From Desulforamulus ruminis DSM 2154 (GTDB lineage Bacteria; Bacillota; Desulfotomaculia; Desulfotomaculales; Desulfotomaculaceae): a stretch of DNA of 64,000 bases. Both the position numbers and the translations under genes were made by a program. The stretch spans positions 2,046,001 to 2,110,000 of the forward strand of contig NC_015589.1 of assembly GCF_000215085.1 (NCBI RefSeq), read 5' to 3'. The notes below the pieces were generated by a model. That model was not told the DNA's origin. It searched no databases and was given only the letters and a program-made list of their open reading frames with translations. Positions 7,225 through 55,993 of the stretch are shown piece by piece; the stretch's first letter is position 1; every line of letters starts with the position of its first letter.

Positions 7225-7252
7225 GGTTCCGATAATATATATTATGTTAACT
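7225..7252 (+). other. dif: XerCD dif-like recombination site (site 1)
   Basis: The 28 bp read as left arm GGTTCCGATAA, central TATATA and right arm TTATGTTAACT. Compared from memory, this matches about 23 of 28 positions of both the E. coli and B. subtilis dif sites. It lies in a non-coding gap (7193-7507) exactly where gene direction flips, so it may be the chromosome-dimer resolution site at the terminus. Confidence 0.75.
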
Positions 7253-7507
7253 AAAATCAAAACAGACTTTTTTGGACATTTTTACACCCAGAATGGCCAC
7301 CTATTATTGGCTAGGTTGTAGTGTATCTTGATTAAAGGATTTCCTTGCAGCGGAGCTTATCTCTATTGGTCTGTGTAAAAATTAGTTATTCTGCGGTTTT
7401 TTTGTAATTATAGAAGGTTTCTATACTTTTACGTCGAAAGCAAGTTTAATTTTCAATATCTGATCGCTGTGCCAGCTTGTTGGCTAGAGATAGGAGGTTC
7501 AATCACC

Positions 7508-8620
7508 TTGCAAATTATCTTGGCTCCTTTGGTGGCTCTTGTTGCAGTACTGGTATTAACGCCACACGTTCGCCGTCTGGCCTTTCGGGTCGGTGCCCTA
7601 GACAGCCCAGATCACCGCAAGGTACATCAAGGGGTAATGCCGCGCCTGGGCGGTCTAGCTATATACGCTAGTTTCATAATTGCAGTGCTAGTATGCGTGC
7701 CGCTTAGCAAGCAGTTATGGGGTCTTTTGGCTGGTGCCACATTAATCACCGCATTGGGCATATTGGACGACATTTACCGACTTTCCGCCAGAACAAAGCT
7801 AGTAGGGCAAGTGCTAGCGTCTATTGTGGTCATTTTTTTCGGGATAAAAATCACTTTTGTTAGTAACCCTTTTGTGCCAGGTGTGATAGTATCATTGGGC
7901 ATTCTTGCTGCACCACTTACCGTGGTCTGGCTGGTGGTCGTCATTAATGCCGTCAATCTGATCGACGGCTTAGACGGCTTGGCAAGTGGAACATCTTTCA
8001 TTGCAGCGCTGACTATGACCGCACTAATTGCCCTAGACACATACCATGTTATCGGATCAATAGATTTAGTGATGGTGAGCTTACCCCTTATAGTAGCGGC
8101 AGCCACGGCTGGTTTCCTGAAGTTCAATTTTCATCCTGCGAGTATTTTCTTGGGCGACGGTGGATCAATGTTACTTGGTTTTTTGCTTGCTAATATGGCG
8201 ATAATGGGTCTTACCAAGAGCGCGACGGTCGTATCGGTTGTCATTCCTGTAGTGATTTTGGGGGTTCCGCTGATGGATACCGTATTTGCTGTTATAAGAC
8301 GCTTCAACCGGAACATGCCCATTATGCAGCCCGACCGTGAACACCTACACCATCGATTGCTAGAGTTAGGTTTGAATCATCGTCAGGCTGTATTGGCTAT
8401 CTATGGGGTGAATACTGTGCTCGGAGGGATTGCGATCTTACTAACGATGCTTGCACAGGGTCCTGCCTTGATACTGGTTGAAGGGGTACTCCTCGCTGCT
8501 ATAGTTGTTGCCAACCAGTTAGGTATTATTGGTAAACGTCTACGAACTAACTATTTGATTTCATTGTTTGTTATACTATATGGTTTGAGTATTTTCATAT
8601 TCTTTTTTCCTAAGTTTTGA
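7508..8620 (+). CDS. MraY/WecA-family glycosyl-1-phosphate transferase (TagO/WecA-like)
   Basis: 370 residues with about 10-11 membrane helices. Family motifs are intact: DDIYRLSARTKL (Mg-binding Asp pair), NAVNLIDGLDGLASG, FLGDGGSMLLGFLLA, and the HLHHRLL loop. It transfers a sugar-1-phosphate, usually GlcNAc-1-P, from UDP-sugar to undecaprenyl phosphate, the first step of teichoic acid or surface polysaccharide synthesis. TTG at 7508 is chosen because AGGAGG lies 10 bases upstream; a GTG at 7469 extends it by 13 residues without a ribosome site. It is a single gene bracketed by two dif-like sites. Confidence 0.88.
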   Translation: MQIILAPLVALVAVLVLTPHVRRLAFRVGALDSPDHRKVHQGVMPRLGGLAIYASFIIAVLVCVPLSKQLWGLLAGATLITALGILDDIYRLSARTKLVGQVLASIVVIFFGIKITFVSNPFVPGVIVSLGILAAPLTVVWLVVVINAVNLIDGLDGLASGTSFIAALTMTALIALDTYHVIGSIDLVMVSLPLIVAAATAGFLKFNFHPASIFLGDGGSMLLGFLLANMAIMGLTKSATVVSVVIPVVILGVPLMDTVFAVIRRFNRNMPIMQPDREHLHHRLLELGLNHRQAVLAIYGVNTVLGGIAILLTMLAQGPALILVEGVLLAAIVVANQLGIIGKRLRTNYLISLFVILYGLSIFIFFFPKF

Positions 8621-8754
8621 ATCATTCTTGATACATATCTCCTCATTGCCTCAGCTTAAAATAACCCCATTAACCCTAACACTAACAATCTTATTCCATT
8701 TATTGAGTTAATCCTATATTTAAAGGGCTTATACCTCTTTCTTAATAATAAGTA

Positions 8755-8782
8755 CTTGCTTATTCGATATATTATGTTAACT
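8755..8782 (+). other. XerCD dif-like site 2 (right half conserved)
   Basis: The last 16 bases, ATATATTATGTTAACT (8767-8782), are identical to site 1 and in the same orientation. The left arm (CTTGCTTATTCG) is mostly different. A conserved central region and XerD arm with a diverged XerC arm is the pattern expected at the far end of an element integrated at dif. Confidence 0.6.
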
Positions 8783-8788
8783 AGATAG

Positions 8789-8832
8789 AATCTCCTAGGA
8801 TCCCTTATTATTAGGGTTTCAAGGAGATTTTT
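8789..8832 (+). terminator. Terminator after site 2
   Basis: AATCTCCT (8789-8796) pairs with AGGAGATT (8822-8829), with an inner CCCT/AGGG pairing, followed by TTTTT. It points rightwards and would end transcription coming from the glycosyltransferase side. Confidence 0.65.
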
Positions 8833-8860
8833 CCTAATCATTTAGAATCAGATATTAATC

Positions 8861-9060
8861 AAATTTATGCTGCTAATATTTGTGTCGCTTGGACAAGGCT
8901 ACCGGGCTTCTCCTTTGGCATCGCCAATAATGGTGACGCTTTCTTGTTTTACGTACCCTAACAGCCTTTCCTTCGGGCAGCCAACTCAAGGGTTCGCTTC
9001 ACCAGGCCTGCCGGTATAATTTTCTATGTAACAAGAAACGGTCAAAGCGGCGGGCTATCC
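8861..9060. ncRNA. GC-rich block with long-range stem; candidate structured RNA or element remnant
   Basis: The block is more GC-rich than its surroundings and lies between two genes. TGAC-gc-TTTCTTGTT (8934-8948) faces AACAAGAAA-cg-GTCA (9030-9044), 13 of 15 positions pairing. Inside are ACCCT/AGGGT and GC-rich short stems. Frames on both strands are broken by stops. I could not match it to a riboswitch, SRP RNA, tmRNA or 6S RNA. Strand is unknown. A worn transposon piece is the alternative. The rest of 8621-9203 shows nothing. Confidence 0.35.
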
Positions 9061-9203
9061 ACGAAGTTGTACATAATACTTGAGGGACTAATAATGAATA
9101 AACCGGGTATTCCTCACAGGTTTTTTTGCGCATTTCATCCGGTCACCCGATTATCTGCGCCAGAAGGGACAAATACTCCCTCCAGCTTGATTAATATTTC
9201 AGG

Positions 9204-12222: not shown

Positions 12223-12684
12223 GTGCAGTTTGCTATAGCGCTTATTATTTTTGTTTTTATCTTAGGGGTTTATGAACAAATACACCATCATAAAAACTTA
12301 AACCAGATCAATCTTAGAATCAATATAAACGGTACAAGAGGTAAATCAACTGCAACAAGATTAATTACCGGTATTTTAAAGGAAGCAGGAGCTAAGGTTG
12401 TCGGAAAAACGACGGGAACCAGTGCGAGAATTATTTATTGGAACAAGGAAGAAGAAGAACCAATCAAACGAGGCCGTCTAGGTCCAAATATTATAGAACA
12501 AAAAGCTGTCGTTAAAAAAGCAGTCAAGCTTGGCGCATCTGCATTTGTAACAGAATGTATGGCCGTAAATCCCAATTACCAGATTATTTTTCAGGAAAAG
12601 CTTGTTAAAGCAAATATAGGCGTTATTGTTAATGTTCGTGAAGACCATATATTGGCGGTCAGAATAAGTTGCTGGCAGAATTGA
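12223..12684 (+). pseudogene. pgsB: pgsB/capB (poly-gamma-glutamate synthase) N-terminal fragment
   Basis: Residues 1 to about 141 match PgsB: an N-terminal membrane anchor, a basic HHHKNLNQI segment, and the ATP-binding motif [14 protein letters not shown]. Full PgsB is about 390 residues; this stops after NVREDH and then reads 12 unrelated residues. The DNA after about 12647 belongs to a poly-gamma-glutamate hydrolase in another frame. The gene is therefore broken by deletion and cannot make working ligase. No pgsC, pgsA or pgsE is seen nearby. Confidence 0.8.
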
Positions 12685-13094
12685 TCAGATTACATCTTAC
12701 TGCCAAAGGATATAATGTAAAAACTTTAAATATTCAGGATCGCATTGCCGGGGTTATGGACAGCAATATCGTGAATAAGAATAAATTGTTTAATAACAGT
12801 TATCAGCTTGGCGGCGTTCAGATCGCTATTTCCAAAGGTTTAAGAGATAAACTTGCAACTGATTCCGGTACCTTAAACGATTATTCAGGCACCATCAATA
12901 ACGCGCTAAGCGAAAGCTGGCCAACAATAGTTGAGCTCATGAAGAAGATTAATAATAATAAATCTGAAGGGTTTTTAAATCGGTTTAACCCTGAAAAGCG
13001 CAACTTCGATAAGAAAATCCAGAAAGTATTAGAAAAAGGCGCAAAGAATCCCAAGGAATTAATTCAAGATCTTAAAACAGTATCAGAAGAATAA
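12648..13094 (+). pseudogene. Poly-gamma-glutamate hydrolase family, C-terminal fragment
   Basis: From 12648 the plus-strand frame reads [17 protein letters not shown], then DRIAGVMDSNIVNKN and GGVQIAISKGLRDKLA. These align with the intact paralog at 13173-13904 (YIGGRDTELANRIKESL, DLAGISSDNIVNRN, GVQLEISEGLRTKF). Only the last half of the domain remains, plus about 50 extra residues rich in Lys and Asn. An ATG at 12669 may allow translation, but the catalytic N-terminal half is gone. Confidence 0.75.
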
Positions 13095-39482: not shown

Positions 39483-40127
39483 TTATTTTGCAATGGTTAT
39501 CCTTGAGGTTGAGGCGAGATGCATGGCATTCGCTTCTTCCGTGTCGATATGAAATTCAAGAGCCGAGGTGTTGTTGGCTCTGATAACGACATTCGAGTAG
39601 GTTCCTCCCCGAAGTCCGTCTATCTTAATGGTCACCTGTTCCCCATCGGTTACGCCAAAATGTTTTGCATCTTCCAGGGTCATGTGAATATGACGCTGGG
39701 CGATCAAAAGGCCTTTAGCAAGAATCACGCTTCCTTTGGGACCAATGAGGGTAACTCCCGGCGTTCCCTGCAGGTCTCCGGACAACCTCACCGGGGCGGT
39801 TACGCCCAGTTTAAAGCAGTCTCCCTGGAGTATTTCCACCTGGGATTCGCTGCGCACCGGCCCGAGGATGCGAACCTTTTCAATGGCTCCTTTCGGCCCG
39901 GCAATGGTCAGGGTTTCCTTACAAGCGTACTGCATGGGCTGAGAAAGTTCCTTGACTTTTGTTAGTTGGTATCCGGCGCCAAACAAGGTTTCCAAATCTG
40001 CCTGGGAAAGATGGATATGGCGGTTCGATATCCCTACGGGTATGGAGTAATCGACCTCTTTTTCCAAATACCCCCCTTCTTTGATTGCTTCCAGCAGAAG
40101 TGCTGCTAAAGCGTCATACTTTCCCAC
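39483..40127 (-). CDS. pduL: PduL-type phosphotransacylase
   Basis: 214 residues. Both PduL repeats carry their zinc-binding His motif (PVGISNRHIHLSQADLETLF and AQRHIHMTLEDAKHFG). It converts acetyl-CoA to acetyl phosphate inside the shell, freeing CoA for the aldehyde dehydrogenase. The N-terminal KYDALAALLLEAIKEGG is an amphipathic helix like BMC encapsulation peptides. GTG start with GAGGTG 10 bases upstream. Confidence 0.92.
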   Translation of the reverse strand: MGKYDALAALLLEAIKEGGYLEKEVDYSIPVGISNRHIHLSQADLETLFGAGYQLTKVKELSQPMQYACKETLTIAGPKGAIEKVRILGPVRSESQVEILQGDCFKLGVTAPVRLSGDLQGTPGVTLIGPKGSVILAKGLLIAQRHIHMTLEDAKHFGVTDGEQVTIKIDGLRGGTYSNVVIRANNTSALEFHIDTEEANAMHLASTSRITIAK

Positions 40128-40129
40128 TT

Positions 40130-41605
40130 TTAGTGATCACCTCTTTTTTTCAGTAGCGAAATAACTTCATTGACAACATTCATAAGCTGATCTTCACTGA
40201 TGCCGCTCTCTGCGGAGCAAGCTGAATAGGAGGTGGTTGCTGCATTTTCGGCGCACTCTTTAATACCATAGGCTACACGCTTTTTATTGATCAGATGCAT
40301 GGGGGTTACATTATCGGAGGTTGCGCTTCCCCCCCAGGTACCGCATCCCAGTGTAAAGGCCGGGGCAAGTCCGGTGCTTACGCCCACGCCGCCATGGGTG
40401 GAGGGAGTGTTGACCAAGATCCTGAACACCGGTTTTTCAGCGAATTTCATGGCCATTTCAGGATTTTCCGTATGAATGGAAAGGCTGTGGCCTACGCCGC
40501 CGTTATTTAGAAGTTTAATACACAAATCACACGCTTCTTCCCAATTCTTTACGGTATAAAAGGCCAATACGGTGGTCAACTTTTCGTAAGAAAGGGGATA
40601 TCCTTCGCCCACACCCTGTTGTTCACCCAGCAGAACTTTAGTTCCCGGCGGAATGGTTATACCGGCGCTTTCTGCAATGACGGCCGGGGATCTGCCAACC
40701 AATTTGGCGTTCATGGCGTGGCCGCGGACAAACAATTTTTTAGCAACCCGGTTGGTTTCCTCGGGGGTCATGAAGTATCCGCCCTGGCGTTTGAACTCTT
40801 CCATCACCTGATCCCGCATGCATTCTTCAACAATCACCGCCTGCTCGGAGGCGCAGATGGTTCCATAGTCAAAGGTTTTGCTGGTGATAATATTCTTGAC
40901 TGCCTTGGCCACATTAGCGGTTCTCTCGATATAGGACGGAACGTTGCCCGGTCCTACGCCCAGAGCCGGTTTCCCGGCGCTGTAGGCGGCCTTTACCATG
41001 GCGGAGCCGCCGGTGGCAATAATCATGGCCACTTCATCGCATTTCATCAATTCATCCGTGGCAACCTTGGTGGGCTTGGAAATGCATCCGATAATATTGG
41101 CCGGAGCGCCGGCAGCCACTGCGGCGTCATTCATCAGTCTGGCGGCCTGCAGGGTGCATTTCAGCGCCGAAGGATGCGGTGAGAACACAATCCCGTTCCG
41201 GGTTTTCATGGCAATAATGGATTTGTAGATCACCGTAGAGGTGGGATTGGTTGAGGGAATAATCCCCATGAGCAATCCTACCGGCTCGGCAATCTCTACG
41301 ATTTTATTGACCGGATCGTCTTTGATGACGCCAATGGTTTGCATAGGTTTGATAAATTTGTACAGTTCTGTGGAAGCAAACTGATTTTTGAAAGTTTTAT
41401 CTTCCACTTTACCAAATCCCGTTTCTTCCACCGCCAGTTTGGCCAGGGAAACCGCATTTTCCTCCGCGGCTTTCACCATATTGCAGATGATTTTATCAAT
41501 CTGCTCGGAATTAAATTTGGCCAGTTCAGTTTGTGCCAGTTTGGCCTGACGGGCAAGATTTCTGGTTTCCTGCAGGGATTGTAAATCATAATCAAAGTTT
41601 TGCAA
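40130..41605 (-). CDS. CoA-acylating acetaldehyde dehydrogenase of the BMC
   Basis: 491 residues of the EutE/AdhE-N family. The catalytic Cys251 is present in TFDYGTICASEQAVIVEE; the nucleotide-binding region has STNPTSTVIYKSIIAMKTRN. It oxidises the acetaldehyde made by CutC to acetyl-CoA with NAD+. A C-terminal helix after a linker (ISEDQLMNVVNEVISLLKK) is a typical encapsulation peptide. It is paralogous to the 54175 gene, which lacks the Cys. TTG start after GAGAGGAAG. Confidence 0.92.
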   Translation of the reverse strand: MQNFDYDLQSLQETRNLARQAKLAQTELAKFNSEQIDKIICNMVKAAEENAVSLAKLAVEETGFGKVEDKTFKNQFASTELYKFIKPMQTIGVIKDDPVNKIVEIAEPVGLLMGIIPSTNPTSTVIYKSIIAMKTRNGIVFSPHPSALKCTLQAARLMNDAAVAAGAPANIIGCISKPTKVATDELMKCDEVAMIIATGGSAMVKAAYSAGKPALGVGPGNVPSYIERTANVAKAVKNIITSKTFDYGTICASEQAVIVEECMRDQVMEEFKRQGGYFMTPEETNRVAKKLFVRGHAMNAKLVGRSPAVIAESAGITIPPGTKVLLGEQQGVGEGYPLSYEKLTTVLAFYTVKNWEEACDLCIKLLNNGGVGHSLSIHTENPEMAMKFAEKPVFRILVNTPSTHGGVGVSTGLAPAFTLGCGTWGGSATSDNVTPMHLINKKRVAYGIKECAENAATTSYSACSAESGISEDQLMNVVNEVISLLKKRGDH

Positions 41606-41675
41606 TTGACTCTTCCTCTCTACAACGTCTTCTACCTGTTTAGAGGCATTCAGTATTTAGCGTCTTGTATAAAGG

Positions 41676-42284
41676 TTACTTGTTCGTTTCCCTCCGGTAA
41701 TACTCCGTCAGTTTTTCAATCAGTAAGTCTTTATTGGCCTTGGATATGGCTCTGCCTGCCAGGTTAAGTTTTTTGTATTCTCTTGCCAATTGGCGAAGTT
41801 TTACTACAGGGAGTAATTTTAAGGCGTTAACACTTTTTTCAAGTCCATAGGTCTGTACGAAAGCATCAACCTCCTCTTTATGGTAGTGCTTCAGCGTCAT
41901 TGGCTCAGAGGGAGCATTTTCTGTTGTAATGGCTGCTTCCGGTTCTCTCGATGCCGCTGTCCTATCCTGCTCCGGCGCCACGGAACTTGGCGGAGGGCCG
42001 ACGGGATTTGCGCTTACAGTTACCAGGCTTTCCATATCTGGATGCGGTCTGGGAATGACGTGTTGAGAAACCAGGGAGGAAGGATCAATCTTTTCAACCG
42101 CTGCCACGCCGGCTTCCACCGCGGCTTTAACCGCTCCCACGTCACCGGTTACGATAATGGTTACCAAGCCGCCGCCCACCAGGGTTCTCTCCACCAGCTC
42201 CACCTGGGCCGTTTTGACCATGACGTCGGCACATTCAATGGCCGGAAGGAGTCCTCGTGTTTCAATTAAGCCAAGAGCCTGCAT
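41676..42284 (-). CDS. BMC-H shell protein with C-terminal extension (PduK-like)
   Basis: 202 residues. Residues 1-90 are a BMC domain ([40 protein letters not shown]). A Pro/Ala-rich linker (about 105-140) leads to a basic helical C-terminal domain (VVKLRQLAREYKKLNLAGRA, KDLLIEKLTEYYRR), resembling small SAP/Rho-N-like nucleic-acid or protein-binding folds. It may tether cargo or place the compartment. Pduk-type extensions usually bind metal; no Cys cluster is seen here. Confidence 0.85.
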   Translation of the reverse strand: MQALGLIETRGLLPAIECADVMVKTAQVELVERTLVGGGLVTIIVTGDVGAVKAAVEAGVAAVEKIDPSSLVSQHVIPRPHPDMESLVTVSANPVGPPPSSVAPEQDRTAASREPEAAITTENAPSEPMTLKHYHKEEVDAFVQTYGLEKSVNALKLLPVVKLRQLAREYKKLNLAGRAISKANKDLLIEKLTEYYRRETNK

Positions 42285-42295
42285 CGCTTACCCTC

Positions 42296-42970
42296 CTATT
42301 GTTGTGCCATAAGATCAGCCCAGTTTGCCGGATAAGTTACGTAAAAAAGTTTGACATACTCAGGGGAACTCCAGGTTACTTTGGAACCCTTGGGTACAAA
42401 GAGGACATCTCCCTGGTGAGCTTGATAGGTCTCACCATTGATGGTGATAGACAGGCTTCCCTCGAGAACAATATCAATCTCCTCATAGCACAGTTCCCAC
42501 TCAAAGCTGGATTTTTCAATGGTCAAAAAGCCTGCGCTCATGCGGGAATCCTCTTTGCCCACCACTTCGCAATAAGCCACCTGGGTGCTGGAATCACCCG
42601 TGTCAAAGGGTTCATAGTTCGCAGTCCTGCCGCGCACAATTTTCAATCCGCTTTTGGGATCATAATCTGCACGGAAGGGCTTTCCGGATGACGGGGCGGC
42701 AGCACCGGCCAGGAGTTTGCTGGCCAATACCGCTTTGACAACCTGATAGATCATCTCCGGGTCAATGTCCTTTTGGCCTCTCTTCGGCAGGCCGCAATCT
42801 TTACCGGCGGAAGTTCCTGCAGCAGATGAACCTGCTGCAAATTCCACACCCAGTTCTCTGGCTAAATCCCTGGCTGACGGTGTAATCAAGGTATGGCAGT
42901 CTACGCAGAATGTTTTTTGACCTTTTTCTGCCGCTGCTTTTACCTCCTCTGCACAAACAAGTTTTTTCAA
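42296..42970 (-). CDS. eutQ: EutQ-like cupin protein
   Basis: 224 residues. The N-terminus (KLVCAEEVKAAAEKGQKTFC, TLITPSARDLARELG) and the C-terminal cupin barrel (about 110-220; CYEEIDIVLEGSLSITINGE, GDVLFVPKGSKVTW) follow EutQ. EutQ proteins have acetate kinase activity or structural roles in ethanolamine BMCs; here acetate kinase-like use of acetyl phosphate is possible. TTG start with AGGAGG 7 bases upstream. Confidence 0.87.
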   Translation of the reverse strand: MKKLVCAEEVKAAAEKGQKTFCVDCHTLITPSARDLARELGVEFAAGSSAAGTSAGKDCGLPKRGQKDIDPEMIYQVVKAVLASKLLAGAAAPSSGKPFRADYDPKSGLKIVRGRTANYEPFDTGDSSTQVAYCEVVGKEDSRMSAGFLTIEKSSFEWELCYEEIDIVLEGSLSITINGETYQAHQGDVLFVPKGSKVTWSSPEYVKLFYVTYPANWADLMAQQ

Positions 42971-43013
42971 AATAGCACCTCCTTTGGCTAGAGTGTTCTA
43001 TGTGAAGGTAAGA

Positions 43014-43562
43014 TTAGAACAAGGTTGTCCACAATTTGCTGGCCGGAGAGGCAATGACCTCCAGATCAACCAGCAGTCCTTTTTCCGCCACCAGGGCTTT
43101 CCCGGCTTCAATCCCTGCTTCCACGGCGGCAACATCCCCGGTAAAGGTGAAGTAGGCTTTGCCCCCCACCCCACTGCCCAGACGCAGTTCCAGAGCTTGT
43201 ACGTCCGCTGCTTTGAGGGCCGCATCGGCTGCAATAATCATGGAGGCCAGGGAAAAGGATTCCATGATCCCCAGGGCTCCGGTTCCATCGGGCATGGTGG
43301 TGGCCGTAATGGCCGGGAAAACCGCCGGGTGGACATTGGGAAGGATAAAACTGTCTACCAGGTATTCTCCCGCTGTTGCTACGCCCACGTTGATGGAGCT
43401 TTCCACGGCGGCAACGTCTCCCTGGACGATGGCGATATATTTTCCCGGACAGACAGGCGTTGCGCTGACCACTTCCACGTAGGCGGTTTTCAGCATCAAG
43501 TCTGTGGCATAAATTCCTTTGGCAATACTCGTAAGTTCAATCATACCAATCGCGTTATACAT
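43014..43562 (-). CDS. BMC-T tandem-domain shell protein (PduT-like)
   Basis: 182 residues, two fused BMC domains. The first carries Cys in ATPVCPGKYIAIVQ, the residue that in PduT trimers binds a [4Fe-4S] cluster at the pore. The second has GALGIMESFSLASMIIAADA and TGDVAAVEAGIEAG. It overlaps the PduS-like gene by 8 bp, as expected for an electron relay made of both proteins across the shell. Confidence 0.9.
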   Translation of the reverse strand: MYNAIGMIELTSIAKGIYATDLMLKTAYVEVVSATPVCPGKYIAIVQGDVAAVESSINVGVATAGEYLVDSFILPNVHPAVFPAITATTMPDGTGALGIMESFSLASMIIAADAALKAADVQALELRLGSGVGGKAYFTFTGDVAAVEAGIEAGKALVAEKGLLVDLEVIASPASKLWTTLF

Positions 43563-44889
43563 ATGAACCCACCTTTATCACAATAGAATGATCCGTGTTT
43601 TCGATAACCGTCCCATCGCAGCTGGCGTGAACCGCCGCGCCGAGACTGTTGTCCGGAATTTTTCCAATCAGTTGTCCGGCTTTTACCTGTTCGCCCGGAG
43701 CCACAACCGGTACTGCCGGGGCCCCGATGTGCTGCCGCAAAGCAATACGAAGGATTTGCGGCCGGAATTCAACCTCGGTCATGGGCGCCGGCTGATCGAA
43801 ATCCGTTAAGCCGATTTTGGCGATCAGGCGTTTGCTGGGAATCAGGCGATATTCTCTGGCTGTCCGCGGCTGGAACTCCATCTGTGTGGGCTGATAGCGC
43901 AGCCCTTGTTCCGCTAACTTTTGCTTATAAAGAATATTGACCGATTTAGGATGGAGGTTCGCCGGACAGGCGAATAATTCACAGGCATTGCATTCACAGC
44001 ATAATTGGGCGAACTGTATTCCCTCCAGGTCCAAATTATAGCTTAAAGCACGCATCACCTTATGGGGCTGCATATTGTGCCCCAGGAGATAACGGGGACA
44101 CAGGTCGGTGCACATGCGGCATTGCTCACAGGCGGTTCTGCCGATGACTCTGGCCCGGTGGATGCTGACGGATTTCTTGCGAATGAGAAAGTGATCTTTT
44201 TTCAACAACAGGTAGCCCTTGCTTTTTTTGGTGACATGCCCGTCCAGATTGTTCATGAGCGAGCCCATCATGGGGCCGCCGTCGATCACGGCATAATCAT
44301 CTACATTCTCTACTCCGCATTGTTCGATGACATCCCGGATGGCTACGCCTACCGGTACTTTAACCGTCAGGCGGCGGGGAATATCTCCGGCAAGGGTGAT
44401 ATAGGTCTCGGTGACCGGCTTCCCGGCCATGGCCCGGGCGATATTCAATGCCGTTTCCGCATTGATCACCACACAGCCCACTTTCAAGGGGATGGATGCC
44501 TCCGGAACAATTCTTTGGGTCAGTTCATGGACCAGAACCTGTTCGTCACCGGCGGGATAGATATCCCGGAGTTCCATGACTTCCATATAATCTGCCAGCC
44601 CTAAAGCCGTAATTCTTTCCCGCAGCAGGACAATCACTTCTTTGTGTTTCCCTTTGATCCCAATGATGGCTTTGCGGGCTTCAATGGTTCTTCCCGCCGC
44701 TTCCAGCCCCCGGATGATTTCATCCGGAAACAGCTCCATTAATTGCTGATCCACTCTCAGCAGGGGCTCGCATTCAGCTCCGTTTAACAATATATACTCG
44801 GCTTTGGAAGTTAGCTTGGCGTGGGTTGGAAATCCAGCGCCTCCCGCCCCGATAATCCCTGCCTCTTTGATCATGTTCAGCAGATCCAA
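43555..44889 (-). CDS. PduS-like RnfC-family flavo-iron-sulfur protein
   Basis: 444 residues. An N-terminal FMN/NADH-binding region (IKEAGIIGAGGAGFPTHAKL), a soluble-ligand-binding SLBB domain (PVGVAIRDVIEQCGVENVDD), and two [4Fe-4S] motifs (CEQCRMCTDLCPRY, CCECNACELFACP) match PduS, followed by a biotinyl-lipoyl-like C-terminal hammerhead. In Pdu it reduces cobalamin; here no B12 enzyme is present, so it more likely re-oxidises NADH or passes electrons through the PduT-like pore. TTG start after GGAGGTGGG. Confidence 0.9.
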   Translation of the reverse strand: MDLLNMIKEAGIIGAGGAGFPTHAKLTSKAEYILLNGAECEPLLRVDQQLMELFPDEIIRGLEAAGRTIEARKAIIGIKGKHKEVIVLLRERITALGLADYMEVMELRDIYPAGDEQVLVHELTQRIVPEASIPLKVGCVVINAETALNIARAMAGKPVTETYITLAGDIPRRLTVKVPVGVAIRDVIEQCGVENVDDYAVIDGGPMMGSLMNNLDGHVTKKSKGYLLLKKDHFLIRKKSVSIHRARVIGRTACEQCRMCTDLCPRYLLGHNMQPHKVMRALSYNLDLEGIQFAQLCCECNACELFACPANLHPKSVNILYKQKLAEQGLRYQPTQMEFQPRTAREYRLIPSKRLIAKIGLTDFDQPAPMTEVEFRPQILRIALRQHIGAPAVPVVAPGEQVKAGQLIGKIPDNSLGAAVHASCDGTVIENTDHSIVIKVGSYV

Positions 44890-44910
44890 AATTTCCCACC
44901 TCCGGATTTC

Positions 44911-45171
44911 TTAAAAGGTACAGTCTTCATCAATGATTCCCACAATGGCGGCATCAATGGGCACATCGTCCTGGTTCATCATTTTACGGGCCGAGCTGCC
45001 GGTACAGACAACCACCCGTTCACCAATGCCGGCGCCGATGGTATCGGCGGCAATCATAAGGCGGCCGGCGTCAATGCCGCCGAGGACTTCCACCAGCATG
45101 AATTTCAGCCCTATCAGTGACTCGGCTTTTCTGGTGGCCCAGATATTATCAATCACTTTGGCGGCGATCAT
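44911..45171 (-). CDS. BMC vertex pentamer protein (EutN/CcmL family)
   Basis: 86 residues of the EutN/CcmL/PduN fold (IAAKVIDNIWATRKAESLIG, AGIGERVVVCTGSSARKM, DAAIVGIIDE). Five copies close each vertex of the shell. It overlaps the upstream gene by 4 bp (ATGA). Confidence 0.93.
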   Translation of the reverse strand: MIAAKVIDNIWATRKAESLIGLKFMLVEVLGGIDAGRLMIAADTIGAGIGERVVVCTGSSARKMMNQDDVPIDAAIVGIIDEDCTF

Positions 45172-45479
45172 GAGCCTTCCCCCTTTTTAACTGCTTTTAA
45201 CTTATCCTGTATTTCTTGCATGGCCGCTTCCACCGACGCGGTATCGCCAAAGATGGCGATCATAATCAGATTCTGGGGGCAATGGCCTTTAATGTCTTCC
45301 ACAACCACTCCGGCCGCCTTTTCTGCGATATCCGCCGCAAAAACCATGTCAATTAACCGTCCCTGGACCAAACCCACCGCGTCATAATTCCCGATGGAGG
45401 TGGTTGCGGCAGAGCCCTTTCGCCGAAAAAGAATATCCAAGGTCCCCTGGGAAGGGGATTTGATCATGCGATACTCCAT
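45168..45479 (-). CDS. Divergent BMC-H protein (GrpU/CutR-like)
   Basis: 103 residues. The BMC fold is recognisable but diverged: SPSQGTLDILFRRKG, AVGLVQGRLIDMVFAADIAE, and a pore-side GHCPQN. GrpU proteins of glycyl-radical BMCs bind an iron-sulfur cluster through such a cysteine at the pore. This may be a second redox-active tile beside the PduT-like trimer. CutR of streptococcal choline loci is the closest relative I recall. Confidence 0.8.
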   Translation of the reverse strand: MEYRMIKSPSQGTLDILFRRKGSAATTSIGNYDAVGLVQGRLIDMVFAADIAEKAAGVVVEDIKGHCPQNLIMIAIFGDTASVEAAMQEIQDKLKAVKKGEGS

Positions 45480-45499
45480 GGGTAAAAGTCACTCCAATC

Positions 45500-46342
45500 T
45501 CAAAGGATTTCCTGGGTGCAGTTCAGCGCAATCCCCAAAGGGGTTACAAACATGGGGTTTTGCGGTTTATAAGTGGGAAGGCTGGTTTGTTTGGCGATCA
45601 TCTCTTCGATTCCGTCCAAACAACAGGTTCCACCCACCAGATAGATTTCTTTTACCGAGTATTGGCCGATATGGCGATTGATAATGGACGAAACCTTTTC
45701 AATCACCGGTCGTAATACGGGAACCAACTCCCGATGGTTCTTAAAATCCCGCTTATATTGATCCGCCTGGTCAAAACTCATTTTGTAAGCACCGGCAATG
45801 ACCAGAGAAAAGTGCGTGCCGCCGGTGGGTTCATCGGCCACATAAATGACTTCGCCGTCTTTCAGGATGGCAATCCCGGTGGTACCGCCGCCAATATCCA
45901 CAATGGCGCCGTCTTTAATCTTTAACACGGCATTGGCCGCCGTGGGTTCATCCAACAGACCGGTAATTTCGAAGCCCGCCCCCTGTACCACATGTTTAAT
46001 GGCTCCCGAATCCAGGGTAAAGGTTCCCGGGGGAAGGGCCGCTGCGGCATAGATCAGCTCTGTGCCCAGCTTCTCTTCAAGTTCTTGCTTTAGTTCTTTG
46101 ACAATGCGAATGGCGCCGATATAATCCACCACCATGCCGTCTTTCACCACGCTGGCAAAACGATAGGCGCCGGCCACCGGCCGGTAATGCTCATCAAGGA
46201 CAGCCAGTACAATATAGGCGGTTCCCAGGTCAATGCCGGTATAATAAACGGAGGATTGATTCAATACGGGTTTTTGGATGACTTGTTCAAAATCACCAAC
46301 CAGTTGATCACAGTATAGAAAAGCCGAATTCAGGGTTTTCAT
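45500..46342 (-). CDS. eutJ: EutJ-like Hsp70-fold chaperone
   Basis: 280 residues of the actin/Hsp70 ATPase fold: phosphate 1 GIDLGTAYIVLAVLDE, phosphate 2 IVDIGGGTTGIAILKDG, adenosine region VYLVGGTCCLDGIEEM. EutJ lacks the Hsp70 substrate domain, as here. It is thought to aid folding or reactivation of BMC enzymes. ATG at 46342 follows AGGAGGGAAGAA. Confidence 0.9.
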   Translation of the reverse strand: MKTLNSAFLYCDQLVGDFEQVIQKPVLNQSSVYYTGIDLGTAYIVLAVLDEHYRPVAGAYRFASVVKDGMVVDYIGAIRIVKELKQELEEKLGTELIYAAAALPPGTFTLDSGAIKHVVQGAGFEITGLLDEPTAANAVLKIKDGAIVDIGGGTTGIAILKDGEVIYVADEPTGGTHFSLVIAGAYKMSFDQADQYKRDFKNHRELVPVLRPVIEKVSSIINRHIGQYSVKEIYLVGGTCCLDGIEEMIAKQTSLPTYKPQNPMFVTPLGIALNCTQEIL

Positions 46343-47001
46343 TTCTTCCCTCCTATACACTTCCGCATCATCATGCAGAGTAGGTTTATGATCAGACGGA
46401 CCCGATCAATCAGATCCTGCCGTGAGCAGACCTGCTTCTCCTCATCCCAATAGTTTTCCAGAAGGCCGGGTTCCACTTCCTGGAGGGAAGCGCGCAAATG
46501 ATTTAACAGAGCAAACTCTTTGTTATTTTCCAGCCCCAGGGGCATCTCACTGATGTCCATGGATTTTTCCGCATTCTCCAATTGCTTTTTAATCTCTGCT
46601 TCCGACCAGCCCCAGCATTGGATGCTGTCCGGCGCCATTTGTTCCTGTTCGGCCTTGCGCAGGTTCCGGAAGCACCGGTCCAGGGCCATGACTTCTTCGG
46701 ACAAGACAGCGTTTCCGGCCTGTAAAATTTCTGCCGCCCCAAGGAGAAATAAAGATTGTATGCAGTCCATTTTTCCACGCAATCTCAGGAGGCACCAGTT
46801 TTCCTTTTCCTGAGCCGGATGCGGTTGATGGGGAGGTGCTTTCTCGCTGTCACTGCACCGGGCTTGTACCAGGGTGACCCGCCGGTCCACAAGAAATTGG
46901 CGGGCTCCGGGCGTAATCTTTGTATCCGGTTCCAGAACGTAAGTGGCAAAGGGTTCTGTTTTATACAAATCCCGTAATTCCATTTCGGTGATGAATCTCA
47001 T
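46339..47001 (-). CDS. EutT-like cobalamin adenosyltransferase-family protein
   Basis: 220 residues. The N-terminus (FITEMELRDLYKTEPFATYV, KITPGARQFLVDRRVTLVQ) and helical C-terminus (NHLRASLQEVEPGLLENYW) follow EutT. EutT's metal-binding Cys-Cys-x-x-Cys motif is not seen; single cysteines occur at about 49, 69 and 79. Since CutC does not use B12, enzymatic adenosylation seems unneeded, and a structural or other role is likely. It overlaps eutJ slightly. Confidence 0.75.
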   Translation of the reverse strand: MRFITEMELRDLYKTEPFATYVLEPDTKITPGARQFLVDRRVTLVQARCSDSEKAPPHQPHPAQEKENWCLLRLRGKMDCIQSLFLLGAAEILQAGNAVLSEEVMALDRCFRNLRKAEQEQMAPDSIQCWGWSEAEIKKQLENAEKSMDISEMPLGLENNKEFALLNHLRASLQEVEPGLLENYWDEEKQVCSRQDLIDRVRLIINLLCMMMRKCIGGKK

Positions 47002-47097
47002 TGCCTCACCTACCCTTCCTTAACTTCCCTGTTACCCAATTTCCTTCGATTGATTGCTGAAAGCGAAAAACACAGCGAATATATATAATGAAGAAAC

Positions 47098-47553
47098 TCA
47101 ACTCTTTTCAGATGTTTCTTGTTTTCCAAATAAATAATCTTTCAGGGCTTTTACACCCTCCTGGTCTTTTAAAGAGATCCGAAAGTAAGGTTCTGAAACT
47201 CCGGCTCTTTTCAACTGCTGCATACAAAGCCGGGCATTTTCCGGCGCCAAATCGATCTTGTTAATCACCCCGATGACAGGGCGGTTAAAGGATTTGGCAA
47301 AACCGGGCGGATAGACTTCAACGGGTCTTGATTGATCCACAAGCAAAAGCACATGGGATGCCGTTTGGGCTATTGCAATCAGATATTTATACATGAAAGG
47401 GTTTTCTATATAGGAACTGGGTGTGTCAATGGTCCTCTGGCCATAAATCACATCCTGGGTCCTTCTTAAGGGTCCGGCGCAATCATTCAATACATCGATC
47501 AGAGTGGATTTGCCCGATTGGCCGGGTCCCACTACCATGATTCGCTTTTTCAT
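47098..47553 (-). CDS. eutP: EutP/PduV-like small GTPase-fold protein
   Basis: 151 residues. P-loop [13 protein letters not shown], switch region [12 protein letters not shown] and base-recognition NKIDLAP are present. EutP/PduV proteins are associated with BMC positioning or, for EutP, acetate kinase activity. It overlaps the EutS-like shell gene by 4 bp. Confidence 0.9.
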
Positions 47554-47903
47554 GTGCGCGTAATCTTGGCCGGTGTAAATTCCAGCAGCTTTTCCAGGGT
47601 GTCGTTAATGGCAATCATGGCGGCTTCCACGCTGGCCACATCACCGGAGATTACCAGTGATCCTGTAAAGCGATCCAGAAACCCGATCTCTACGTCCGAG
47701 GCCTTGGTGGCAATGTCCGCTGCGATAATGGCTGTCTCGCAGGGAGTAAGGGTGGAAATTCCAATGGCCCCTTTTTCCTCAATGCCCAAACGGTCATAAA
47801 GGTCCGGTATTGGTGAAGCGATGATGTGAGCCAGCGTAACCTGCTTGCCCGGTACCGATTCCTGGATAATCCGTTTTTTGTCGAATTCATCGGCTGCACT
47901 CAT
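47550..47903 (-). CDS. Permuted BMC-H shell protein (EutS/PduU-like)
   Basis: 117 residues. An N-terminal strand ([20 protein letters not shown]) precedes the permuted BMC core ([35 protein letters not shown]-like). Such hexamers carry a beta-barrel cap over the pore. It follows cutD by 26 bp. Confidence 0.92.
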
Positions 47904-47929
47904 AAAATCCCTCCGTTCCAGTGGTTTCT

Positions 47930-48916
47930 TTAGTGCCGGATGACTTCCACCGGTAAGTCATCCCTTTTTATAAAAGCTTCTATTTGATCCAGTTCTGCTT
48001 CTCTGAAGCTCAAATCTTCGGTGATGGCGTATTTCAGGCCCAATTGCTTGTATTTGTTGATGCCCAATTTATGATAAGGAAGCAAGTCAATGCCCAGAAA
48101 GTTTTTGCAGCTTTTAAAGGACTGCAGGAATTCCATGGTTCGGCCAAGGGTTTCTTCATCATCATTCAATCCCCGCAGCAGGGGCATCCTGATTTTCACC
48201 GTAAAACCGCGGCGGATGAGTTCCGTTAAATTATCCAGAATGCGTTCATTGCGCACCCCGGTAAGTTCATAATGCCGGTCCGAATCAATGTGCTTCAGAT
48301 CATACAGAAACAAATCCGTAAACCGGGCCATGGTGAGCAGGGAGTCCAGCTTGGCATAGCCGCTGGTTTCAATGGCGGTATGGATTCCCAGCCGTTGGCA
48401 TTCCATCAGCAGATTGGCGGCAAATTCCGGCTGGGCTGTGACTTCCCCTCCCCCCAGAGTGACCCCTCCACCGGAATTCAGGTAGAAAAGCGCATCCTGT
48501 TGGATGATTTCCAGAATATCGGAAATGGTCTTGTCCGAGCCTACAATGGACAGTGCTTGTTTGGGACAAGCATTTTCACATTTCCGGCAGCCCACACAAT
48601 CAATGCTTCTGTTTACTTGATGCCTGGGCCCTTCCCTTCCGGTTTGCTGCTGCCCAGATTCTTCATCCGAGAAATCATGGATGTGCACGGGACAAACCGG
48701 AATGCAGTTACCGCAGTGAATGCAAAGCTCCTCTTTGTACATGACCTGATATTTTCTTTCAAGTCCTTCGGGATTTGAACACCATTTGCATCTCAGGGGA
48801 CACCCTTTGAAGAAAATTAACGTTCTAACGCCCGGCCCATCATAAATGGAATATTTCTGGACATTGAAGATTCTCGCTTTTCTTTCCAAGATGCAGCCTG
48901 TCTTTGTACTCATCAT
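47930..48916 (-). CDS. cutD: CutD glycyl-radical activating enzyme
   Basis: 328 residues. The radical-SAM CxxxCxxC motif is [14 protein letters not shown], followed by two ferredoxin-type clusters ([12 protein letters not shown] and [12 protein letters not shown]), typical of activases of the PflA/CutD type with an inserted domain. It makes a 5'-deoxyadenosyl radical that installs the glycyl radical in CutC. Oxygen-sensitive. Two tandem ATGs lie at 48916/48913; an in-frame extension to 49003 lacks a good ribosome site. Confidence 0.93.
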
Positions 48917-49044
48917 GTCCCCATCCCTTTTAGTAAACTTGGCTTGCGCCAAGTACCTGACGCAGTCGTAAGACAGTTTGTCCTTAGGCGGATCGGACAA
49001 CATTTTAAACTTTCCGATCTGCTAAAACCTGCCTGTTGAAAAGT

Positions 49045-49332
49045 TTATTTTGTCCATCGCTTAGGAAGATATTTTTTGAGAAGTTTTCTCCCTTCAGGAT
49101 TGATGGAGTAGTAAATTACCAGTTCTCCCTTTTCGTCCAGGGCCACATCGTTATCGTCAAGGATAAAGTTGGCTTTCATATCCAGGAGATGATTCATAAA
49201 GACTTGTTTTTTAAACTGTTTTTCCGTGCCGTATTCCGGTTTCAAGGCCTTCATAATCTCATCAACGCAGGCCTTTTCAACGGTGGAAAGATAATGAAGA
49301 ATTCTAAAGCGCAAAGGTAATAGATCCTTCAT
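49045..49332 (-). CDS. Small winged-helix-like protein in the BMC operon
   Basis: 95 residues with a predicted winged-helix pattern (RFRILHYLSTVEKACVDEIM, KQFKKQVFMNHLLDMKANFI, then a beta wing DNDVALDEKGELVIYYSI). I recognise no named family. It may be a DNA-binding regulator or antirepressor of the operon. Its start is 3 bp after the permease stop, with GGAGGG 8 bases before the ATG. Confidence 0.65.
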   Translation of the reverse strand: MKDLLPLRFRILHYLSTVEKACVDEIMKALKPEYGTEKQFKKQVFMNHLLDMKANFILDDNDVALDEKGELVIYYSINPEGRKLLKKYLPKRWTK

Positions 49333-49335
49333 AAT

Positions 49336-50346
49336 TTATACCCTCCCGCCTTTATTGAAAAATTCCTTGGGGTTAATGGCTACCAGGGTAGCGCCAATCA
49401 GCACCAGGCCGCTGCCAATGACCAGATTCTGTGTCAGGGGCTGGCTCAGTAAGATAACCGAAAAGATCACGCCCCACATGACATAGGTTCCGTTGAGAGC
49501 CATTCCTTTGGCCACGCCAATGGTGGTGTTGGCCTTATACCAGGCCAGGTAAGACACTGCGGCGGTCAGGCCGGCAATGGCAAAGGCGCCAAAGACTCCG
49601 GGCATGGTAAGGACTTTGGAAATCACGACCCAGCCGCCGACCATGGGAAGAATGAAGATCGCCATAAAAAGACCGGAAGTCAGTTCACGGATATTAATGG
49701 CAATCTTCGGATCAATCATGGACATGCCGAATACGGCTAAAACCGCCTCCGCGCCCCAGCCAAAGGCCGCTAAGGACGCAAACAAAATTCCGAGATAAAA
49801 GGCCGAGCTGTTGCCGCCTTCGGGCGGCACATAAGATATCACAATGGCGCCGATCACCGAGAGAAACATACCGACCATCACCCGGGGGACAATTTTTTGT
49901 TTAAGGAAAACGCGGGAAAGAATCGCACCAACAATGGGATAGAGTGCAGTAATGGTTAGCGCATAAGCGGGTCCTGCCAGGGAAATTCCCAAAAGGTAGC
50001 CGCCATTGGCAATGGGTCCGCCCAGCAAAGCGGCTACACAAACCATGAGGCCGGGAAAGGTTTTAAGACTGCGAAGGATTTCCTGAAAGCGTCCGGCCCC
50101 TCCGTTATAAAGGAGCAGCCACAGGCCTGCTAAGCTGTCATTCATACAGGCGGCGGCCAGTGGGATGGTAAGCAGGGCCGCTTTATCACCCATAACAGGC
50201 ACAAGACCTAAAGCCAGACCCAGGAGCACACTGTTCAAACCCCAGGCGCAGCCGCTGAAAAGACCTGTAAATACGCCTTTTCTGGCAAAATCGGCATTCA
50301 ATTTTTCCTTCATCATCATGGCTGTTTGATTTCCCGCGCTGTTCAT
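49336..50346 (-). CDS. LicB-like DMT-superfamily permease, probable choline importer
   Basis: 336 residues with ten membrane segments, two EamA halves. Stretches such as GLFSGCAWGL, ALLGGPIANGGYLLGISLAG, ALYPIVGAILSRVFLKQKI and FYLGILFASLAAFGWGAEAV align by eye with pneumococcal LicB, a choline permease. Placed right after cutC, it likely brings choline into the cell. Export of trimethylamine is the alternative. Substrate is inferred. Confidence 0.8.
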   Translation of the reverse strand: MNSAGNQTAMMMKEKLNADFARKGVFTGLFSGCAWGLNSVLLGLALGLVPVMGDKAALLTIPLAAACMNDSLAGLWLLLYNGGAGRFQEILRSLKTFPGLMVCVAALLGGPIANGGYLLGISLAGPAYALTITALYPIVGAILSRVFLKQKIVPRVMVGMFLSVIGAIVISYVPPEGGNSSAFYLGILFASLAAFGWGAEAVLAVFGMSMIDPKIAINIRELTSGLFMAIFILPMVGGWVVISKVLTMPGVFGAFAIAGLTAAVSYLAWYKANTTIGVAKGMALNGTYVMWGVIFSVILLSQPLTQNLVIGSGLVLIGATLVAINPKEFFNKGGRV

Positions 50347-50427
50347 ATAAACGATGTCTTCCCCCCTTATTTGTGGAATATCTGAAGTGCCGGCATGCTT
50401 CAGATATTCCCATAACTTAAAGTCGGT

Positions 50428-52971
50428 TTAAAAATGCTCCAAAACGGTTCGGCTGATAATTTCATCCTGTACTTCCTTGCACAGCTCTACGAAGTAAGCG
50501 CTGTACCCGGCCACACGAATGATCAGGTCCCGATATTTGTCCGGTTCAATTTGGGCTTTCTTTAAAACTTCATTGTCCACATAGCTGAACTGCATCTGAC
50601 CGTTGCCAAGAATGGAGGCGGTTCTAAGCAGGGTAATCAGGCCGTTTTCCCCTTCGGGGGTTTCCAGAATACCGCGCAGCAGCTTGAAGTTGTGCACCAT
50701 GCCGATATTCATGGCCTCATTATTCAGCTTGCTGACCGATTTAATGATGGCTGTGGGTCCCAGTTTATCGGCCCCCTGGGTGGGGCTGATGCCGTCGGAC
50801 AGAGGCGCCCAGGCCAGACGTCCGTTGGGCATAGCGCCGGTAATCTCTCCAATGGGCGTGTTGTTGGAAATGGAAAGGGTTCCATGGGTAAAGTGCGAGT
50901 ACAGCATTTTAAAGCTGTTGTGAACCCGTTCCGTCCAGGTGACGATATCCGAGGCAATTTCATCCACATAATCATTGTCATTGCCATATTTCGGTGCGTT
51001 CAGGCAGTCGGTCCGGATGGCTTCGCAGCCCTCAAAATTAGCAGCCAGGGCGTCCCGGATTTGTTTCAGCGTATATTTCTTCTCTTCAAAAACCAGTTTT
51101 TTAATGGCTGCCATGGAATCCGCATAGGTGCCCAGGCCGGAGAAGATCAGTCCGGGACCGTAATTGATCATCGCGCCGCCGTGGGTAACATCGGCGCCTT
51201 TTTCCATGCAGCCCTCTACCAGCAGGGACATCAGGGGTTTGGGAGCAATATCCCGGTGCACCCGCTGGCTGACAATGGTGCCGATGGCCGACAGGCGGAT
51301 GATATGTTCAAGTTGTTTTTTGCAGGCAGCGTCAAATTCTTCATAGGTCTTAATATGGTCAAGATCCCCCGTATCAATTCCTTCCATGGTGCCGCGCCAT
51401 TTCATAATGCCCCGGTTCAGAACAAACTCGATGGCAATGGGCCATTGGGTGTAGCCGGTGGAAGTCCACTGATAAATTCTGCCGGACTTTTGCGGTTCAA
51501 CGCAGCCCATGAGGCAATAATCCCGCGCATCTTCAATGGAGAATCCCTTGGCCAGCATCATTTTGATATGGGTATCGTCAAAGTGGCAGGCCGGGAAGCC
51601 CAAACCGGCTTTCACCACATCCACAATTTTTTTCAAATATTTTTGCGGCGATTTGTTGTGAATACGGCAAGCCAGGGACGGCTGATACATCTTGGTAAAA
51701 CGAACGGCGTCCATAATCAGATAGGTTAAATCGTTGGTGGCGTCGCCGCCGGTTCTCTTTTGTCCGCCGATGGTGCAGTTGATAAAGGGCTGATAGCCGG
51801 CGAAATATTTTGCTCCCAGTTCACTGGACAGCCACATGACTTCCGAGCATTTGATGATGAAGCAACTTAATAGTTCAAAGGCTTCCCGCTTGTTCATACG
51901 GCCGGCTTCCAGGTCGGCCTGGAACATGGGATAAATGTATTGGTCTAAGCGACCCACGGAAATGCCGGTCTGGTTTTCTTCCACCACGAACAGGGATTCC
52001 AGGGTCCAGATGGACTGGAGCGCTTCATGAAAGGTCCGGGGCGGATGGGCCGGTACATGGGTCAAAATATCGGAAATCTTGTAAAGCTCTTTCTGACGGA
52101 CAGCGTCCTGCTCCCGGCCGGCCAGTTCCCCGGCATAATCCGAAAGCCGCCGGGCATAAGCCAGGATGCCGTCGCAAGTCTCGATTTCCGCTTTATAGAA
52201 ATAGATCTTATCAATGTCCTCGGGATTTTCCATGGACAATTGGCTCAACCGGTCCACGGCTTCCTGTCTTACGCCGGCAATGCCTTTTTTAATCAAAATG
52301 ACATCATAACCCGGGCAGGTGTCTCCGCCGCCGTTAACCTGATGGTAAGAAAGATCACTGACAAAGGATTCGCCGGAAAAGGACCATACGCCGGCTTCTT
52401 CATATTGCTGCTGACAAATTTCGTCCAGACTCTTGCCTTCCCAGTAAGGGAAAACTTCCTCCCGTAAAATCCGCTTGTCCTCTTCGCTGATTTCAAAAGG
52501 ATCCTGGGGCCTGGTGGACATGGTATCCAGTTCATCCCGGATCCATCTCCAGGCAATATCCGGGGATACCGCGCCGGCCCTGGGTTTGCCGCAGGGATGT
52601 CCAACAATCAGTTCATCCTTTTGAATCAATAGGGGCGCTGTTTCGCAGGCTTTTCTAAAGCACTTGGCCCGCAGCAGAATCTTGGGCAGCCCCGCATTTT
52701 CTTTGGCTACCTGGGTGAAGGCCCGGGCACGGTAGGTACTGACACTGGGCTTCACCTTTAAATAAGCGGCCCGCAGCCGCTCCAGGCGGGGTGTCAGTCC
52801 GGTAATTTCCCCTTCAAAGGCCGGTGATTTTGCCTTGTTGGACATTGCCGGCTCCTGGGCGGAAAGCTCCTTGGAGATACCCTCAAACAGCTTCATAATG
52901 GCCGCTGTTTCTTCCGGGGACAAATCTTTGGTGGCATCCGCAAATTTATTTGAAAACTCTTTAAGATCCAA
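50428..52971 (-). CDS. cutC: Choline trimethylamine-lyase CutC (glycyl radical enzyme)
   Basis: 847 residues, one longer than the D. alaskensis CutC I recall. The active-site loop [15 protein letters not shown] puts the thiyl Cys at 490 and the base Glu at 492. The glycyl-radical loop RVAGYSAYF puts Gly at 822, 26 residues from the end. GCVEPQ is diagnostic of CutC against diol dehydratases. It splits choline to trimethylamine and acetaldehyde inside the shell. The first 36 residues ([16 protein letters not shown]) look like an encapsulation helix. TTG start, with GGGAGG 8 bases upstream. Confidence 0.95.
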
Positions 52972-53024
52972 CTTTTCTTCCTCCCTCTTACTTTATTCAG
53001 CAGGATAAGTTGCTTATGGTCCGA

Positions 53025-54161: not shown

Positions 54162-54174
54162 TCCCGCCGTCACC

Positions 54175-55638: not shown

Positions 55639-55693
55639 CCTTCAATCACTCCCCCTTTTACCCCCAAATGAAAAGGTTGACCCATGCCCTTGC

Positions 55694-55993
55694 TTACCAG
55701 TTGATCACGTACCTGGCAACAATCTTTTCTACATCCTCATGGGGCCTGGCGATGACATTGGAACTATAGACCGGACCTACCTTGCCGGCTTGTTTGACGC
55801 CGGCAGCCACAGCCGTCTTTACCGCTCCCACGTCGCCGCGAACCACCACCGAAACCAAACCGGAGGCCACGTTTTCATAACCCACCAATTCCACATCCGC
55901 AGCCTTGCACATGGCGTCCGCCGCTTCCAGCACCGAAACCAGACTGTAGGTTTCTATAAATCCTAAAGCGTCATTCCTCTCCACTTTCTCCAC
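55694..55993 (-). CDS. BMC-H shell protein
   Basis: 99 residues, one BMC domain ([53 protein letters not shown]). GTG at 55993 has AAGGGGA 6 bases upstream; a TTG at 56011 would add six residues. It forms hexameric facets together with the next gene product, and lies at the promoter-near end of the operon, where major shell proteins are usual. Confidence 0.92.
   Translation of the reverse strand: MEKVERNDALGFIETYSLVSVLEAADAMCKAADVELVGYENVASGLVSVVVRGDVGAVKTAVAAGVKQAGKVGPVYSSNVIARPHEDVEKIVARYVINW

Follow-up and report, generated by a model that had tools for sequence, protein, structure and literature searches.

A candidate IMEX-like element on the XerD side of the chromosomal dif site of Desulforamulus ruminis

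We propose that a 1.53-kb block directly adjoining the chromosomal dif site of D. ruminis (positions 7253-8782 of the window, that is, of the whole 64-kb stretch of DNA analyzed) is most likely a small, non-autonomous IMEX-like element, predicted from sequence to have been inserted at dif via an XerD half-site by the host Xer recombinases. The observed basis for this proposal is a polarized pattern, insertion points in relatives, an intact dif at one end of the block, and the presence of host Xer genes. Comparison with relatives argues for insertion at dif, and the reading of a Xer-integrated module offered in a first-pass annotation of this DNA is supported by insertions at the same point in relatives and by shared end sequences.

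The chromosomal dif (site 1) occupies 7225-7252 on the + strand and reads GGTTCCGATAA TATATA TTATGTTAACT, with an XerC arm at 7225-7235, a centre at 7236-7241, and an XerD arm at 7242-7252. We take the left arm to be XerC and the right arm to be XerD from their likeness to E. coli dif; by the same orientation, the dif repeats of UPphi inoviruses, considered below, presumably represent the XerC side. Site 1 is the sole full dif of the genome: a genome search recovered it with 0 mismatches over the last 26 bases of dif, and found no second full dif within 3 mismatches. Both arms are conserved in congeners, with a variable centre (TGTATA, TATATA, TACATA). Site 2 (8755-8782, + strand; CTTGCTTATTC GATATA TTATGTTAACT) is a hybrid, or secondary, site with the XerC arm lost, the centre GATATA, and the XerD arm matching at 11/11 positions. 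Its last 16 bases are identical to those of site 1, and its XerC arm agrees with that of dif at only 4/11 positions, about chance level. These results confirm the description by the first-pass annotation of two dif-like sites in the same orientation that share their last 16 bases, the second with a diverged left arm. Its count of two sites was wrong, as a further XerD half-site (site 3; centre ATTATA) is present at 57747-57774 on the + strand, oriented as dif. Immediately left of site 3 is a strong, terminator-like hairpin (57694-57736, + strand) that 0 of 300 dinucleotide shuffles equaled in folding under RNA parameters.

The exact 15-mer TATATTATGTTAACT has three copies in the 3,969,014-bp chromosome, corresponding to sites 1, 2, and 3; all are on the + strand and all fall inside the window. 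A common chance match, the fate foreseen for site 2 if the module reading were wrong, is thus not what the genome-wide search revealed. At two or fewer mismatches the same word is not in excess across the whole genome (17 matches versus 22 for the reversed word), so exact matches alone are informative. Within the window, the 16-mer at three or fewer mismatches gave 5 matches against a shuffle mean of 0.98, a number reached in 1 of 100 shuffles.

Sites 1 and 2 enclose one gene (7469-8620, + strand), encoding a 383-aa glycosyltransferase of the WecA/TagO/MraY type, a polyprenyl-phosphate sugar-1-phosphate transferase (Pfam PF00953, Glycos_transf_4, E 2e-38). The annotated single WecA/TagO-like gene was therefore borne out. 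The NCBIfam wecA model matched at 3.7e-43, yet under the model cut-off, and the product displays aspartate and histidine motifs that we take to be those usual for such transferases. Neither a replication or mobility gene (by open frames and Pfam) nor a recombinase gene was found within the 1.5-kb block. A one-gene dif module had been called unusual for a Firmicute; the single gene stands, but small inserts at dif recur in the order. The gene is the second copy in its genome, the other homologue (3702659-3703699, at 3.70 Mb) being 54% identical. Homologues were found in 44 of the 45 genomes searched, mostly one in each, with 46-59% identity except in G018, a member of another family that harbors the nearest relative (70% identity). 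The 5-kb contig encoding this relative also contains a frame that looks like fabZ by sequence; it lacks a dif-like site (best match, 17/28). In each of the eight other genomes of the genus, a homologue with 50-55% identity is encoded elsewhere (split in two in G007, which is incomplete). The gene is missing from the dif regions read in 8/8 of these genomes, which comprised 37 nt right of dif in G002 and 1.3 kb on the left only in G007, and thus is not conserved at the same place in relatives; the likely continuation contig of G002 had no glycosyltransferase among its frames. Searches of plasmid and phage records returned no DNA match for 7225-8900. The dif-side glycosyltransferase is an extra, foreign-looking copy, probably acquired from another lineage, and its activity as an additional sugar-phosphate transferase may alter a surface polymer. 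A partial second homologue (G002:C29:1-306; 47% identity over 104 residues) is found at the start of the dif contig of G002, 34 kb left of dif. Right of site 2 in D. ruminis, short frames at 12223-13094 match the Mur ligase middle domain and poly-gamma-glutamate hydrolase and are possibly gene fragments.

XerD arms cluster on one side of dif in related genomes. Arms were counted in ten genomes of the family (D. ruminis, G000, through G009) over 316,752 nt on the right of dif and 158,822 nt on its left, with right-side coverage of only 37 nt in G002 and 5.2 kb in G009. The exact XerD arm TTATGTTAACT occurs nine times to the right in the orientation of dif and never there in reverse; the left side has one copy in the same orientation, in G004, and none in reverse. 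To the right, 0.16 copies were expected per strand, and the reversed word yielded 0. The nine right-side arms are distributed among 5/10 genomes (two in D. ruminis, one each in G001 and G004, three in G005, and two in G008), with none in G003, G006, G007, or G009. A sixth genome, G002, carries an exact arm away from its dif contig, followed by 37 nt identical to the dif flank of the same genome. At one or fewer mismatches, XerD arms numbered 20 right/same, 5 right/reverse, 6 left/same, and 7 left/reverse; the corresponding XerC-arm counts of 5, 5, 1, and 2 show no excess. Five secondary sites with a dif-like centre, in D. ruminis, G005, and G008, combine an XerD arm conserved at 11/11 positions with an XerC arm at 3-5/11, and their centres share 4 to 6 of 6 positions with the dif of the same genome. 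The centres of the G001 and G002 secondary sites do not match dif. A dif-like centre is absent from 4/9 clustered arms, one each in G001, G004, G005, and G008; family flank sequence follows that of G001 (HMM E 2e-7), and those of the other three genomes may be incidental.

Empty and filled sites were distinguished in family f16, where dif loci were read in 8 of 16 genomes after exclusion of three rows that were not dif (G051, G028, and G052b). The right flank of dif is conserved over about 2 kb in this family. At the empty sites of G052 and G024, no more than about 12 and 22 nt, respectively, separate dif from this flank, which starts about 331 (G046), 380 (G048), 377 (G049), 835 (G043), 242 (G050), and 1,387 nt (G047) after dif in the remaining loci. 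Thus, 6/8 loci contain inserts of about 0.23-1.4 kb between dif and the conserved flank. An exact copy of the XerD arm ends 7, 11, and 4 nt before the flank in G046, G048, and G049, respectively, and G043 has exact copies ending 66 and 108 nt before it. Inserts of G050 and G047 contain no copy better than 3 mismatches, and blastn at E 0.01 detected no mutual similarity among the six inserts. This comparison describes the f16 inserts; the D. ruminis block itself shows weak flank similarity only. On the left side of dif, different f16 groups have different sequence, and gene content of the left flank varies between lineages, indicating that the terminus changes by other routes too and that not all change is Xer-made. 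No exact XerD copy was found in G057 or G058 of family f5.

Both ends of the D. ruminis block resemble sequences at the corresponding places in congeners. The left-end region (7253-7468, + strand) is non-coding and corresponds, in diverged form, to the sequence located after dif or after secondary sites in congeners. When 7253-7552 was compared with eight congener flanks, the summed similarity was reached by 1/300 shuffles and the best single score by 12/300; for the first 45 nt against G007, 0/1000 shuffles reached the score. A right-end motif (8716-8751, + strand) is common to the right ends of elements in two congeners, with the 55 nt left of site 2 resembling those of site 2 in G005 (1/1000 single-base shuffles) and G008 (0/1000); 36 pairs were compared, 5 of them at 20/1000 shuffles or fewer. 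A hairpin in this motif is not significant alone in D. ruminis. Beyond site 2, positions 8783-9082 (+ strand) are a diverged copy of the congeners' dif right flank, best preserved at 8934-9010. Sum and best score were each reached by 0/300 shuffles, and among 305 windows across the region, 1 reached the sum of the site 2 flank and 0 its best score. Against the G001 dif flank, blastn gave 68% identity over 81 nt (E 2e-4); the HMM gave an E value of 1.1 only, though at the expected place. The right flank of site 3 has no family similarity. Collectively, the similarities at left and right indicate that the block has family-type ends and that an older flank seems to continue past site 2. Flank alignments were scripted, those made by standard tools having been set aside for wrongly placed rows. 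Single folds of the left-end region differ and do not establish a conserved RNA structure, and Rfam gave no gathering-level match in the window or in three congener loci; sub-threshold Rfam matches in the G009 dif locus (L132) were not credited.

Integration may be envisaged as follows. A circle whose site offers a good XerD arm but lacks a good XerC arm would pair with chromosomal dif, and host XerC/XerD would recombine the two. Strand exchange is placed on the XerD side, where the homology lies, and the reaction could be finished by XerC or by replication, as in the accounts of TLCphi and VGJphi, respectively (PMC4246890). The expected product conforms to the pattern seen, with intact dif staying at the XerC-side end and a hybrid site (unrelated arm, centre, XerD arm) at the other end. 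With an intact dif kept, dimer resolution need not be lost. Later insertions would reuse the intact dif, again as the pattern suggests, so that identically oriented inserts would accumulate on its XerD side.

Several known elements exploit host Xer recombination at dif. TLCphi of Vibrio cholerae and the gonococcal genomic island (GGI) reside at dif with one degenerate attachment-site arm and employ host Xer (PMC4246890 and PMC5357621). In both, the XerD arm has diverged and the XerC arm and centre are retained (same sources), whereas the D. ruminis block presents the reverse, an XerD arm kept and an XerC arm lost. By reasoning, this places the intact dif at the opposite end from that in TLCphi and GGI. 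The IMEX reading of the first-pass annotation is supported for insertion at dif but not for the arm retained, as the one-armed IMEX that we found described keep XerC. VGJphi and CTXphi of V. cholerae reportedly require homology on only one side of the central region, with the junction resolved by host replication; in the published account (PMC4246890) this is XerC-side homology with XerC catalysis, in contrast to the XerD-side homology of D. ruminis. UPphi inoviruses (PMC7307601) and enterogokushoviruses (PMC7062461) are described as prophages at E. coli dif with an incomplete or variable copy of the site behind them. The UPphi repeats correspond to bases 1-15 of dif, unlike the XerD-side copy in D. 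ruminis, and the downstream copy of gokushoviruses varies most in spacer and XerD arm, the arm that site 2 of D. ruminis keeps (same sources). Legionella LME-1 reportedly uses a single Xer (PMC9765430). Acinetobacter dif (pdif) modules likewise place Xer sites on either side of one or two adaptive genes, but the sites are full 28-bp ones in inverted orientation and mostly on plasmids (PMC6449649), whereas here one full site and one half-site lie in direct orientation at chromosomal dif. Compared with these systems, the D. ruminis block most likely works like an IMEX in mirror image to TLCphi, GGI, and UPphi, a placement based on site architecture; the narrower types fail. Our literature search found neither dif-integrated elements in Desulfotomaculum nor the XerD-arm type in Firmicutes, which does not prove their absence. 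The Xer-integrated elements that we found described are from Proteobacteria, and the one-armed among them keep the XerC side. If true, a recurrent XerD-side version in sulfate-reducing Firmicutes would mean that the other half of the reaction is also exploitable. The block bears on how a non-mobile gene can be carried, and an empty/filled series of the f16 type offers a system to study how recombination starts and why intact dif stays at one end.

Cargo of other dif-side inserts bears on an alternative history, possible although we hold it doubtful, in which rolling-circle phages or plasmids once integrated at dif left the half-sites behind as remnants, the glycosyltransferase gene came later by ordinary recombination between remnants, and the block was never moved by Xer. 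Consistent with such remnants, the G002 insert at dif (about 4.9 kb, joined by inference across two contigs that share an identical 37-nt flank) encodes a Rep protein of the rolling-circle type (L154 6424-7194; REP_ORF2-G2P, Pfam E 1e-9; PHROG replication initiation, E 1e-8), and the D. ruminis block has one gene and none for replication or mobility. The Rep gene by which inoviruses and rolling-circle elements are recognized is thus present in the G002 insert and missing from the block; no rolling-circle Rep (PF23343) was found elsewhere in the D. ruminis genome. The remnant history does not account well for the family-type sequence that the block carries at both ends near the sites, and the 0.3-kb inserts at dif in f16 are too short for a gene of that kind. 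The G002 Rep is the sole hit of its family in nine genomes of the genus. Its only matches in the plasmid collection are two records, both 846-bp Thermotoga plasmids (38% identity over 31% of the protein, E 7e-6), and no relative was found in IMG/VR or phage records. To our knowledge, these rolling-circle miniplasmids are not known to integrate. Two IMG/VR pattern hits were rejected: the 60 nt inspected lacked both a dif-like XerC arm and a flank that matched.

Our preferred reading, insertion by host Xer recombinases, is compatible with the D. ruminis gene complement, which includes an XerD scoring over the cut-off and a further recombinase classed only as Xer-like. That an element-encoded integrase, Xer-like only in its choice of site, performs the insertion instead of host XerC/XerD is unlikely. 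The first insert of G005 does end in a 165-aa tyrosine-recombinase catalytic domain beside the secondary site, and the XerD model has 10 matches in the D. ruminis genome; against these stand the absence of a recombinase gene from the 1.5-kb block and from the G002 frames scanned, and a conserved part that is exactly the host XerD arm. The same G005 insert (L120 9133-18380) contains defence-like genes, encoding a Cap4-type nuclease domain, DUF4238, a NO VEIN C-terminal domain, and a metallo-beta-lactamase fold. Chance, meaning an unrelated horizontally acquired gene beside AT-rich DNA of the terminus that happens to match half of dif over 11-16 bp, is highly improbable despite the abundance of such words in the genome at 2 mismatches and the half-sites left of dif in G487, G147, and G004, given 9 exact arms versus 0.16 expected, their strict orientation, and the empty and filled junctions of f16. 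Chance is thereby largely refuted for the group as a whole, and site 3 alone could be chance or a remnant.

Beyond the individual block, we tentatively raise the idea that dif serves across the order as a one-sided, integron-like landing platform run by the housekeeping Xer system, at which cassettes would enter and dif would be rebuilt each time. Many cassettes might then end in a hairpin and an XerD half-site, with cargo piling up on one side of the terminus, a notion that we hold with equal reserve. Equally speculatively, the cargo could range from 0.3-kb fragments lacking a convincing gene to a gene for a sugar transferase, arsenic-type genes, and a rolling-circle replicon. A strong hairpin (0-1/300 shuffles) is found just left of the half-site at 5/12 secondary sites (site 3 of D. 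ruminis, G008, G046, G048, and G049) and at 0/10 true dif sites; it is not significant at site 2 of D. ruminis. In an integron cassette, a hairpin recombination site would be expected beside the half-site. XerD-side insertion of this kind would also mark the terminus as a place for gain of metabolic and resistance genes. The G008 insert carries arsenic-type genes, named from sequence. An arsR-acr3-like pair or part of it, likewise named from sequence, occurs near dif in D. ruminis (73854-77495, window numbering, L128), G001, G004, G005, and G008, at varying distance and on either side of dif, and on both sides in G005 as inverted copies. We considered the ars-like operon (76443-77495, window numbering) as the native right neighbor of dif and dropped this candidate because distance and side vary in congeners. 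Left of dif, 582 bp with internal 119-nt repeats are 99.8% identical between G005 (L121) and G009 (L132), members of different genera, which suggests either a recent transfer or contamination of a bin.

The 49-kb interval from site 2 to site 3 was considered as an IMEX and downgraded, as CutC occurs elsewhere in 6/8 congeners and the flank of site 3 is without family similarity; the stretch up to site 3 is probably not one element. It includes a choline utilization microcompartment cluster at 39483-57671, with CutC (1560 bits, cut-off 1050) and CutD, and a choline-kinase-like gene ends 75 bp before site 3. CutC scored above cut-off in 6/8 other genomes of the genus, where it lies far from dif in the single-contig G006 and G008 and on non-dif contigs in the rest. 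With the cluster located elsewhere in these congeners, site 3 may be a remnant. Outside the order, G487 and G147 carry their extra half-site left of dif, and phylum-wide counts of tandem sites are to be read as "at least." Two 6.5-Mb genomes of another family, G441 and G407 (L155-L160), each contain three half-sites on one strand, no more than 65 kb apart in all; the arms are partly palindromic.
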